From a bacterium (GTDB lineage Bacteria > Vulcanimicrobiota > Vulcanimicrobiia > Eremiobacterales > Eremiobacteraceae): a stretch of DNA of 64,000 bases. The position numbers were made by a program, and so were the translations under genes. Location of the stretch: positions 1 through 64,000 of the forward strand of contig CADDZI010000001.1 in NCBI GenBank assembly GCA_902812405.1, written 5' to 3'. Shown piece after piece: positions 4,698 to 30,732 of this stretch. Every line of letters starts with the position of its first letter. The first letter of the stretch is position 1. The notes under the pieces are model-generated. The model had not been told where the DNA came from and ran no database searches. It was given only the letters and a program-made list of their open reading frames with translations.

Positions 4698-4711
4698 GCA
4701 ACCGAGGATTT

Positions 4712-4868
4712 CCTCGTTAGGCGAGGCGTCTGCACAAACAAAAGCCGCTGCCCGGAAAGGTCGAGAGACCCCAATGGGCCACCAGGCACCGCCGAAATAA
4801 GGCGGTATCTAAGACGGCTAGGCTTCCGAGCCTTACGTTGTGCAGTGTCAAAGCTCGACGCATGAGGA
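4712..4868 (+). promoter_or_regulatory. M-box (ykoK leader) Mg2+ riboswitch aptamer
   Basis: The RNA carries the M-box signature blocks in order: GTTAGGCGAGGC (4716-4727), GCCGCTGCCCGG (4744-4755), GGTCGAGAGACCCCAATGGG (4759-4778), ATCTAAGACGGCTAGGC (4807-4823) and GTGCAGTGTCAAAGCTC (about 4840-4856). These match the Bacillus mgtE leader pattern (GUUAGGUGAGGC, CCAAUGGGUCA, ACAGUGCUAAAGCUC). The short P1 closing helix pairs CCTC at 4712 with GAGG near 4864. M-box RNAs bind Mg2+ and switch off Mg2+ importers. The genes downstream are a metal transporter and an outer-membrane barrel, consistent with Mg2+ import. Confidence 0.95.
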
Positions 4869-4899
4869 TCCCGGCAGATCCAAAGCCGGTGAACCCGTC

Positions 4900-25663: not shown

Positions 25664-26500
25664 TTAGAGCGTCGCGCCCAGTCGGGCCAAAAAAGGAGCC
25701 AGGTCTTCGGCGTCGACCTCACGACCCGGATATGGCGTCGTCTCTTGCGGGCGGTGGAAGTCCGTGCCGGCCGTCAGGACGAGATTGAGAGCACGAGCCT
25801 TTTCCTTGAGCCGGGCGGCGTCAACGGCATCGTGACGTGACGAGTACACCTCGACACCTTGCAACCCTGCGGCCACAAGCTCCTCAAGCACGTCTTCGGC
25901 GCGGTTGCGCGTCGGGTGTGCCAAGACGGAGACGCCGCCGCAGGCATTGATGGCCGCGATGGCCCGCTCCGGTGCCAGCGTCGTCGAGGGAATGAATGCC
26001 GGGCGATGCGATCCGATGTAGCGTTCAAAAGCGTCGCCGCGGTCGCGGACGACGCCTCGCTGGACGAGGGCGTCCGCGATGTGAGGCCGGCCGATCATGC
26101 CGGCCGGGGCACGTGCCTCAACCTCTTCCATCGTCAGCTCGACGCCCAGGGCGTTGAGCCGTTCGACGATCCGGCGTGCCCGCGTGCGACGGAGCCCGGC
26201 CCGATCCAGTAAGACGTCGCCCAGCGCCCGAGGATCGCGTGGTATGCCGTACCCCAGGATGTGGATCTCCCGATCCGCCCCGAACGTGCTGACCTCGACT
26301 CCCGTGATGAGGCGCGTGCCGAACGGTGCCGCGAGGTCGCCATGCTTCGCGTAGAAGGCCAGCGTGTCGTGATCGGTGACCGAAAAGTAGTCCAGACCGG
26401 CCTTGGCAACGGCGCTCATGAGGTCGCTCGGCGTCAACGCACCGTCGGACAGAGTTGTGTGCATGTGCAGGTCGACCCGAAGCACAGACCGTCGCGCCAC
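25664..26500 (-). CDS. PHP-domain phosphoesterase (RNase AM / nucleotide phosphatase type)
   Basis: 278 aa with PHP metal motifs: VDLHMHTTLSDGALTP (motif I, H-x-H), FSVTDHDTLAFY (motif II), ITGVEVST (motif III), SVLAHPTRNR (H of motif IV) and TAGTDFHRP (C-terminal D-x-H). The length and layout fit the YciV/TrpH group that hydrolyses 3',5'-nucleoside bisphosphates and the 5' ends of RNA. It lies 8 nt after folD on the same strand, so it probably belongs to the folate operon transcript. Confidence 0.85.
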   Translation of the reverse strand: MARRSVLRVDLHMHTTLSDGALTPSDLMSAVAKAGLDYFSVTDHDTLAFYAKHGDLAAPFGTRLITGVEVSTFGADREIHILGYGIPRDPRALGDVLLDRAGLRRTRARRIVERLNALGVELTMEEVEARAPAGMIGRPHIADALVQRGVVRDRGDAFERYIGSHRPAFIPSTTLAPERAIAAINACGGVSVLAHPTRNRAEDVLEELVAAGLQGVEVYSSRHDAVDAARLKEKARALNLVLTAGTDFHRPQETTPYPGREVDAEDLAPFLARLGATL

Positions 26501-26508
26501 CGTCGACT

Positions 26509-27360
26509 TTAGCCTCCGCGCTCGGTGAGGTCGACGATGCTGCGCAGCAGGACGGCTGTCGTCACGGGCCCGACGCCCCCCGGGACGGGCGTCATGACTC
26601 CGGCAACGGCCGCCACGGCGTCGAAATCCACATCTCCCACGAACCGCCCGTCAACCCAGTTTGTCCCGACGTCGATGACGGTTGCCCCCGGCCGGACCAT
26701 GGCCGAACCGACAAAGCGCGGCCGCCCCACCGCCGCGACGACGATCTCCGCCTCGCGAACGACGGCCTCCAGATTGCGCGTATGCGAGTGGCAGATCGTC
26801 ACCGTTGCATTGGCCGCCGTCAGCAGCAAAGCAACCGGCCGTCCTACGACCGCCGAGCGGCCGACAACCGCCGCGCGCGCACCGTCCAAGGCCGGAACCT
26901 GCGGTTGATGAAGCAGCTCCATGACCGCCGCGGCCGTCGCGGGAACGCAAAAACTCTCGCCCGCCATGAGCAGGCCCTGATTGTACGGGTGGGCGCCGTC
27001 GACGTCTTTGCGCGGATCAATCTCCTCGCTGATGCGCGCTGCGTCGAGACCCGGCGGCAACGGCCGCTGGACGAGGATCGCGTGGACGGCCGGATCATCG
27101 ACGGCGGCTGCAACCGCGGCGACAAGGTCGGCCGTGGAGGCCTTGGCCGAAACGATGCGCACGTCGATTGCAATCCCAAGGTCCGCGGCCTGGCGGGCGA
27201 TCTGTTGGGTATACAAACGCCCCGGTTCGTCGTTTTCCATGAGGACCACGGCGCAGCGCGGCTGTACGCCGCGCCGGCGCAACGTGTCAACCCGTTCGCG
27301 CACCGCTGACCGGATGGCGGCGGCTACCGGCCGGCCGTCGAGGATGATGGCCTGGCTCAC
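26509..27360 (-). CDS. folD: FolD-type methylene-THF dehydrogenase lacking the cyclohydrolase lysine
   Basis: 283-aa FolD fold that aligns residue for residue with E. coli FolD up to position 121. Conserved are Y50, Q98 (VQRPLP), D121 (KDVDGAHPYN), the NADP loop GRSAVVGRPVALLL and the C-terminal PGGVGPVTTAVL. The active-site motif Y-x-x-x-K, whose lysine drives cyclohydrolase chemistry, is changed to YTQQI: residue 54 is Ile. The preceding Ala-Ser is Pro-Gly. Human and bacterial enzymes mutated at this lysine are known to lose cyclohydrolase activity, while some retain dehydrogenase activity. The upstream gene, overlapping by 4 nt, encodes a separate cyclohydrolase-family protein that could supply the missing step. 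Confidence 0.93.
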   Translation of the reverse strand: MSQAIILDGRPVAAAIRSAVRERVDTLRRRGVQPRCAVVLMENDEPGRLYTQQIARQAADLGIAIDVRIVSAKASTADLVAAVAAAVDDPAVHAILVQRPLPPGLDAARISEEIDPRKDVDGAHPYNQGLLMAGESFCVPATAAAVMELLHQPQVPALDGARAAVVGRSAVVGRPVALLLTAANATVTICHSHTRNLEAVVREAEIVVAAVGRPRFVGSAMVRPGATVIDVGTNWVDGRFVGDVDFDAVAAVAGVMTPVPGGVGPVTTAVLLRSIVDLTERGG

Positions 27361-27998
27361 GACGCCGGCGCCTGGGGGGCGGGCGAGACTTTGCTCGCAA
27401 CGACCTCGGTGAGGATGTCAACATGGGCCACGATCGCGCTCGCCTCGCTCAGACTGCGGCGGGCAAGCTCGCGATCCTGAAGAGCCCGAGCATTGATTTC
27501 CACGTTGAGCAGTGCGCCATGGGCTGCCGCGGAGGCGAAGAGCGCCGCACAACCGACGTCGCTGGCCGCACTCGGGACTCCGATGTCGGCCAGCGTCAGT
27601 GCCAAGTCGCAAACCGATTGGGCATGTGCAATGATCTGGCGCGGCGGCGCAATGGCTTCCTGCAGGGCGGACTCAAGCGCCGCCCGCCGCGCGGCCTTCT
27701 CCTCATCAGACCCTCGCGGAAGCCGGTACGCACGGCTGACGAGGTCAAAGGCAGCCGCATCGCGTTCCACGAGATCGAGAAAGGCACGCCGCAACGAGTC
27801 GGCCGCTGTCTCAACCTCCCGGCACTGTGCGGCCACGCCTGCATGTTTGGGTGACTGAGCGGTTAGGCGTGCGACCATGCACACGAGGCTGGCCCCCACC
27901 GCCCCGACGGCTGCGCTGGCACTGCCGCCGCCGGGCGTCGGATCGGCGGAGGCCAGCCGCTGTGTGAATGCGTCGAAGTGTAGTCCGGTCAGCGGCAC
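27357..27998 (-). CDS. fchA: FchA-type methenyl-THF cyclohydrolase / formimino-THF cyclodeaminase
   Basis: 213 aa, the usual length of stand-alone FchA. The family signature DPTPGGGSASAAVGAVGASLVCMVARLT lies near the N-terminus; the rest is all-helical, including RDAAAFDLVSRAYRLP and DIGVPSAASDVGCAALFASAAAHGA. It should interconvert methenyl-THF and 10-formyl-THF, or deaminate formimino-THF. I chose GTG at 27998, with GGAGG 6 nt upstream; the longer frame to 28181 is a low-complexity extension. The 4-nt overlap with folD, whose cyclohydrolase lysine is gone, argues for the cyclohydrolase role. No histidine-degradation genes are nearby. Confidence 0.88.
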   Translation of the reverse strand: MPLTGLHFDAFTQRLASADPTPGGGSASAAVGAVGASLVCMVARLTAQSPKHAGVAAQCREVETAADSLRRAFLDLVERDAAAFDLVSRAYRLPRGSDEEKAARRAALESALQEAIAPPRQIIAHAQSVCDLALTLADIGVPSAASDVGCAALFASAAAHGALLNVEINARALQDRELARRSLSEASAIVAHVDILTEVVASKVSPAPQAPAS

Positions 27999-28165
27999 AC
28001 GTCTCCTCCGAGGGACGGCACAAGCGTCACCACCCGGCGCTTGGCCCGGACCTGCGATCTGTCCTTGTGACGCCGCCCCGGAACGTGCCCGCCTGCGGCC
28101 GCTTGGCCAACGCGAACGTCGCAGGTGCGGTACAGCGCGGCCAGGATTTAGGCTGCCACCCTTAA

Positions 28166-29488
<1,323 letters not shown>

Positions 29489-29493
29489 GGGCG

Positions 29494-30732
29494 ATGGCTC
29501 GCATGCGCAAGCTGTTCACATCCGAGAGCGTCACGGAGGGGCACCCCGACAAAGTCGCGGACCAGATTTCCGACGCGATTTTGGACGCCATTTTGGCGCG
29601 CGACCCCGACGGTCGGGTTGCGGTTGAAACCTTCGTTATTACGGGGCAAGTGCACATCGCGGGCGAGGTCAGCACAACCTGCTACGTTGACATACCGCGT
29701 ATCGTGCGCCAGGTGTTGCGCGACATCGGGTACACGCGTGCCAAGTACGGCTTCGATGCCGACACGTGCGGGATCTCGGTCTCGATCGACGAACAGTCGC
29801 CGGACATCGCGCTCGGCGTCGACAAGTCGCTGGAGGCCAAGGAGGGCGACGTCCCGGCCGCCCGCGGCGCGGACACGCTAGGGGCGGGGGATCAAGGCAT
29901 GATGTTCGGCTTTGCGTGCCGCGAAACCAAGGAGTTGATGCCCCTGCCGATCGTCTTGGCGCACCGGCTGACGCGGACGCTGGCTGCAGCGCGCAAAAAC
30001 CGCGTCATCGATTACCTTCGGCCGGACGGCAAGGCACAGGTGACAGTTGAGTACGACGGATACAAGCCGGTGCGCGTGGATGCCGTCGTGGTCTCGGCGC
30101 AACACGCCGACGGCTACCCGATTGACGTCATTCGGGAGAACATCATCCACCACGTCATCGACACGGCGATCGACGGTCACATCCGGGATGCGCAGACGAG
30201 AATTTTCGTCAACCCGACCGGCCGCTTCGTCATCGGCGGCCCGCTTGGCGATGCCGGGCTGACCGGGCGCAAGATCATCGCCGATACGTACGGCGGGATG
30301 GCGCGTCACGGCGGCGGGGCTTTCTCCGGTAAGGATCCCACCAAGGTCGACCGCTCGGGCGCGTACGCCGCGCGTTACGTCGCCAAGAACGTCGTTGCAT
30401 CTGGCCTGGCCGACCGGTGCGAGATTCAGATCGCGTATGCCATCGGTGTCGCCAAGCCGGTTGCGGTGTACGTCGAGTGCTTCGGTACCAACCGCATCGA
30501 AGAAGAGCGGATCGCCGAGCTGATCGACGCTCACTTCGATCTCCGTCCGGGGGCCATCATCGAGAAGTTTCAATTGCTCCGGCCCCTCTATCGCCAGGTG
30601 GCCACCTACGGTCACTTTGGCCGGCCCGATCTGGACCTGCCGTGGGAAAAACTCGATATGGCGCTGGCGTTGCGGGAGGCGGCCGGCATCACGATCGACG
30701 AGGAGAGATTCCCGCAGCCCATCTGCTCGTAG
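29494..30732 (+). CDS. metK: S-adenosylmethionine synthetase
   Basis: 412 aa with the MetK signatures [24 protein letters not shown], the hexapeptide-like [12 protein letters not shown] and the P-loop-like [23 protein letters not shown]. It makes SAM from methionine and ATP. I chose ATG at 29494, five nt after the SAH hydrolase stop; the frame from 29470 would add eight residues and overlap. The ahcY-metK pairing places SAM synthesis and SAH removal in one transcript, probably continuing into hemE. Confidence 0.97.

Follow-up and report, generated by a model that had tools for sequence, protein, structure and literature searches.

The stretch of DNA considered here (the window, 64,000 nucleotides) comes from an uncultured bacterium of Candidatus Eremiobacterota whose 2.3-Mb assembly is 96.65% complete. 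Among named loci, the nearest are assigned to Candidatus Eremiobacterota and Candidatus Eremiobacter; a third bears the name Proteobacteria, probably as the label of a bin. On its reverse strand, two genes for folate enzymes share 4 nucleotides, with a phosphoesterase gene downstream and ahcY and metK on the other side. The features of the locus are as follows.

25664-26500, reverse strand: PHP-domain phosphoesterase, the downstream neighbor (PF02811; under the NCBIfam cut-offs)
26509-27360, reverse strand: folD, predicted 5,10-methylene-tetrahydrofolate (THF) dehydrogenase without the cyclohydrolase lysine, 283 amino acids (PF00763/PF02882, PDB match, residues)
27199-27201, reverse strand: codon 54 of FolD, ATC, isoleucine where bifunctional FolD has lysine (sequence and alignment to E. 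coli FolD)
27211-27213, reverse strand: codon 50 of FolD, TAT, the tyrosine kept (sequence; invariant in the class alignment)
27357-27360, reverse strand: GTGA overlap, in which the fchA stop and the folD start share 4 nucleotides (sequence; the two genes overlap or nearly touch throughout the family)
27357-27998, reverse strand: fchA, stand-alone FTCD_C protein, predicted 5,10-methenyl-THF cyclohydrolase, 213 amino acids (PF04961, 187.7 bits)
28003-28009, reverse strand: GGAGGAG, Shine-Dalgarno-like, 4 nucleotides upstream of the GTG start of fchA at 27998 (sequence)
28205-29488, forward strand: ahcY, adenosylhomocysteinase of the methyl cycle, the divergent neighbor (TIGR00936, 625.9 bits, above cut-off)
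29470-30732, forward strand: metK, methionine adenosyltransferase (TIGR01034, 561.8 bits, above cut-off)

Coordinates, strand, reading frames and the 4-nucleotide overlap are as the sequence-only reading gave them. Its description of the two genes as "fused" is wrong, because they are separate open reading frames, the TGA stop of fchA sitting inside the GTGA that starts folD. Each of the 13 family members whose FolD could be read has the two genes side by side, with a gap of -4 to +5 nucleotides in the 12 whose start can be placed, which is far beyond chance; in Parafrankia, folD and fchA likewise overlap by 4 nucleotides. The cluster of PHP gene, fchA, ahcY and metK is kept in the class members examined and folD is present there only in the family of the window, so that fchA is an old member of this neighborhood and folD the mobile gene. 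The PHP gene shares its strand with folD in the window but is oriented the other way in the three nearest relatives (loci L062-L064), so that it has been inverted in one of these lineages. In the interval between fchA and ahcY no Rfam element was found, and the leader folds no better than shuffled sequences. An M-box (magnesium) riboswitch lies elsewhere in the window (4706-4873, forward strand, 132.8 bits).

Active-site residues of FolD and predicted identity of FchA

FolD matches both Pfam halves of its family (PF00763, 94.8 bits against a cut-off of 32.8; PF02882, 195.9 bits against a cut-off of 27), and its best PDB match is P. aeruginosa FolD (4a5o, E 7e-56), the nearest solved relatives being bifunctional FolDs. 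The NCBIfam FolD model gives it at best 273.5 bits, short of the cut-off of 421. Aligned through Asp121 with the E. coli enzyme, whose numbering is used throughout, it has three of the four residues that mark a bifunctional FolD (Lys54, Tyr50, Gln98 and Asp121); as first read from the sequence, Tyr50, Gln98 and Asp121 are kept, position 54 is isoleucine and the Ala-Ser before it is gone, E. coli YVASK being YTQQI here. In bifunctional FolD, Lys54 serves as general acid/base in the cyclohydrolase reaction and is positioned by Gln98 (PMC3338484). As this acid/base lysine is also said to aid hydride transfer (PMC3368264), its loss might lower dehydrogenase activity too. Ile54 does not stem from faulty sequencing or assembly, since the nearest relatives (69-73% identical) carry it too. 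In an alignment of 16 class members, Tyr50, Gln98 and Asp121 are invariant and position 54 is variable.

The product of the gene directly upstream was assigned to the FchA family in the sequence-only reading, and its architecture is in line with this: it is a stand-alone FTCD_C protein of about 200 residues, the form by which FchA is recognized. Its score against the NCBIfam FchA equivalog NF045657 is 163.7 bits, below the cut-off of 275, so that the name rests on context and on the nearest structure. That structure is the methenyl-THF cyclohydrolase 7vg4 (E 2e-35, compared with 3e-15 for FTCD), and 7vg4 and 7vg5 are presumably both Methylobacterium extorquens Fch, itself a separate cyclohydrolase. 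The partner dehydrogenase of M. extorquens Fch is MtdA, not FolD. FTCD (1tt9) shares the FTCD_C domain, but cyclodeaminases of that type are fused or linked to the formiminotransferase domain FTCD_N or linked to hut genes, whereas FchA of the window is neither. In a tree of FTCD_C sequences, the class proteins branch by themselves, apart from M. extorquens Fch and outside the group that contains rat FTCD, the T. maritima protein and the fused or hut-linked forms.

Folate genes of the genome and the proposed division of labor

The genome encodes a single FolD and a single FTCD_C protein, and no match to formate-THF ligase (Fhs, or FTHFS) was found in it; neither a second FolD nor an Fhs is thus present that might make FchA dispensable. 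As the search for Fhs covered the genomes of the phylum and within the class matched only G076, G089 and G091, an assembly gap is an unlikely cause of its absence. Consumers of 10-formyl-THF are present in the form of Fmt-like and PurN-like genes beside def-like and purM-like genes. Should FolD lack cyclohydrolase activity, no enzyme besides FchA was found that could supply 10-formyl-THF, since there is no Fhs.

The residues, gene order, copy numbers and absence of Fhs, together with the co-occurrence described below, point to a division of labor whose probability we put at roughly 85%. FolD would act solely as an NAD(P)-dependent 5,10-methylene-THF dehydrogenase, predicted to hydrolyze methenyl-THF no longer because its proton-shuttle lysine is isoleucine. 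The product of the overlapping fchA would convert 5,10-methenyl-THF to 10-formyl-THF, and the two proteins would jointly supply 10-formyl-THF to Fmt and PurN without formate-THF ligase. Both activities, and the directions given for them, are predictions. The sequence-only reading had proposed the same assignment under the name of subfunctionalization. Genome comparison strongly supports the assignment, though FchA may have a side role as cyclodeaminase; the name does not fit, as FchA did not arise by duplication of FolD and is a non-homologous enzyme that takes one activity. The arrangement is a division of labor with a non-homologous enzyme, not subfunctionalization of duplicates.

That side role concerns formimino-THF, which may be produced in this organism because a formiminotransferase gene (FTCD_N, G000:C1:82145-83104), about 54 kb from fchA on the same contig, overlaps a HutI-like open reading frame. 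The pair spans G000:C1:80883-83104 on the reverse strand, about 17-19 kb past the end of the window. As the genome encodes both proteins, action on formimino-THF may be an additional role of FchA; the earlier reading had named action on formimino-THF only as an outcome that could overturn it.

Co-occurrence of fchA with lysine-free FolD

FolDs without Lys at position 54, here called lysine-free, are the rule in the class Eremiobacteria. Of the 104 genomes read, only G076 has K at residue 54, and the other 103 carry L, I, M, A or T there; seven further class FolDs (G040, G087, G100, G102, G104, G105 and G127) lie outside these 104. The co-occurrence with fchA that the sequence-only reading had proposed to survey was found: FTCD_C is present in 94 of the 103 class genomes with lysine-free FolD. 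It is likewise present in 96/108 lysine-free versus 3/22 K54 genomes across the phylum (p 5e-12, hut-type copies set aside, that is, those adjoining or fused to formiminotransferase as sorted by hand from coordinates), in 10/10 Frankiaceae with lysine-free FolD only versus 0/11 with K54 FolD (p 3e-6), and in 21/22 versus 2/35 Clostridia (p 2e-12), these small Fisher p-values not standing for that many independent events, because about seven changes between lysine and other residues suffice on the FolD tree and the trees are unrooted. A phylogenetic pair test had two usable pairs, too few to reach significance. When hut-type copies are counted too, FTCD_C does not separate K54 from lysine-free genomes in the part of the phylum beyond the class (p 0.63), because many K54 genomes there carry FTCD_C beside FTCD_N. 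The three K54 genomes of the phylum that retain an FTCD_C after hut-type copies are set aside show Q98E and D121E in FolD. K54 FolDs with Glu98, some also with Glu121, occur in G155 (L068), G164 (L077), G169 (L082), G011, G131-G133, G147 and G148; they branch mostly near the lysine-free clade, and all co-occur with FTCD_C, often fused or hut-linked.

The expectation that a FolD without lysine is accompanied by a second cyclohydrolase holds in most genomes checked. In nine class genomes with lysine-free FolD, FTCD_C and Fhs both went undetected (G044, G061, G063, G066, G068, G070, G071, G079 and G112; all 61-90% complete); five of these genomes belong to the genus g21. Among relatives from this genus, G067 has fchA 3.7 kb away from the end of a contig, and in G064 the gene is divided between two contigs; within the class, FolD went undetected in six genomes and FTCD_N in eight. 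Incompleteness accounts for part of the nine exceptions, perhaps not all. Outside the class, further exceptions are G216 (Clostridia), G183 (Nitrospirota) and G141. One of the two FTCD_C-positive K54 Clostridia, G187, has both types of FolD, with fchA beside the lysine-free one.

Genomes in which a K54 FolD appears beside or in place of the lysine-free type offer a further comparison. In G076, a K54 FolD that branches outside the class lies in one folD-fhs-folD cluster (L323, 4563-7989), FTCD_N is present and FTCD_C is not; its congener G075 has an L54 FolD and FTCD_C. The cluster probably came from outside the class. Its second FolD is very divergent, with Tyr50 lost. Among Frankiaceae, several genomes have two FolDs, one K54 and one I/L54 (e.g. 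G244, G255, G267 and G274; L305-L317); in the second FolD of G274, Tyr50 and Gln98 are gone as well, which gives it the look of a decaying copy. The K54 copies of the two-FolD Frankia genomes come from two separate FolD groups, and those tested have no FTCD_C. These three cases, G076 and two Frankia groups, suggest that gain of a bifunctional FolD makes fchA dispensable, the direction of each swap being the presumed one on unrooted trees. The FolD tree places class FolDs and the lysine-free FolDs of Frankiaceae in one region and those of clostridia in another, so that the arrangement of separate FolD and FchA probably arose at least twice, here apart from the clostridia.

Loss of Lys54 goes with a stand-alone FTCD_C in three separate groups, and three lineages with an unrelated K54 FolD are without fchA, a comparison that strongly supports the division of labor. 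A refinement compatible with it, possible though on the unlikely side, is that FTCD_C has a dual job, as cyclohydrolase for FolD and as cyclodeaminase for 5-formimino-THF. The FTCD_N gene overlapping the HutI-like frame, the lack of any other FTCD_C in the genome to act as cyclodeaminase and the presence of FTCD_N in 136 of 149 phylum genomes speak for it. Some of these genomes are without any FTCD_C, however. G076 and the K54 group f14 both have FTCD_N and are without FTCD_C, so that FTCD_N either can do without FTCD_C or has another role, and in the phylum it may have a role besides histidine breakdown. Conversely, Frankiaceae carry FTCD_C, and FTCD_N was found in none of the 21 genomes tested. 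Still more tentative, and rather doubtful as a whole, is a broader proposal: that in Eremiobacteria one FchA serves two pathways, acting on methenyl-THF and on histidine-derived formimino-THF, its presence being tied to residue 54 such that gain of a K54 FolD leads to loss of fchA. Whether the lysine is dispensable would then depend on a second, unrelated gene, with three or more reversals.

That FTCD_C is solely a formimino-THF cyclodeaminase, with FolD keeping enough cyclohydrolase activity or methenyl-THF hydrolyzing spontaneously, is improbable. The formiminotransferase and HutI-like genes, the homology of FchA to PDB 1o5h and rat FTCD and the lysine-free genomes with neither FTCD_C nor Fhs would be consistent with it. 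FchA is nevertheless nearer to 7vg4 than to FTCD and falls outside the hut-type group, and its gene neighbors are folD, ahcY and metK, with no hut genes. Moreover, FTCD_C follows the loss of Lys54 and not FTCD_N: eight Eremiobacterota with lysine-free FolD have FTCD_C with no FTCD_N found, as do Frankiaceae, and G076 shows the reverse. Of the 22 lysine-free Clostridia, only 8 have formiminotransferase. A pure hut enzyme is accordingly not favored by the distribution of FTCD_N and the FTCD_C tree. Most improbable is a lysine-free FolD that is still bifunctional through a relocated or substitute general base, with fchA redundant; Gln98, Asp121 and the sequence as a whole show good conservation and we know of no assayed FolD of this clade, but the residues found at position 54 (L, I, M, A and T) include no new Lys, His, Asp or Glu, and 94 of the 103 class genomes with such a FolD keep fchA, which is absent from genomes with a K54 FolD.

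Known systems and biological meaning

The principle of separate FolD and FchA is already known, and the arrangement is less unusual than the sequence-only reading held. In Clostridium perfringens, FolD is reportedly a dehydrogenase only and FchA the cyclohydrolase, both being required to replace E. coli FolD. This resembles the division predicted for the window, although C. perfringens also has Fhs. The lysine-free clostridial FolDs read here belong to a different clade and usually have residue 98 changed as well (F/L/M), whereas FolD of the window keeps Gln98. The C. perfringens pair is the subject of Aluri et al. 2016 (doi 10.1099/mic.0.000209, as cited in PMC7219735). The Wood-Ljungdahl clusters fhs-fchA-folD of the acetogens Acetobacterium woodii (PMC10472528) and C. 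autoethanogenum (PMC4022347) also have fchA directly before folD, but run in the reductive direction with Fhs, which the genome of the window lacks. Yeast MTD1 (1edz), a monofunctional NAD-dependent dehydrogenase (Wagner et al. 2005, as cited in PMC11064299), likewise has the FolD fold without cyclohydrolase activity, as predicted here, but is eukaryotic and distant (E 4e-7).

A literature search of partial coverage found no survey of Lys54 loss against fchA and no statement of the rule. As far as it shows, what is new is the class-wide clade of lysine-free FolDs with Gln98 kept and no Fhs, the swaps in Frankia and G076, and residue 54 as a predictor. From this single residue, visible in the sequence, the presence of a second cyclohydrolase can be predicted in an uncultured phylum, in Frankiaceae and in Clostridia, and the name "bifunctional," routinely given to such FolDs, is probably wrong for a whole bacterial class. 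As this class is mostly without formate-THF ligase, fchA should be essential in it, in contrast to the clostridia, where fchA works beside Fhs. Frankia and G076 would represent natural swaps of one activity between unrelated proteins.
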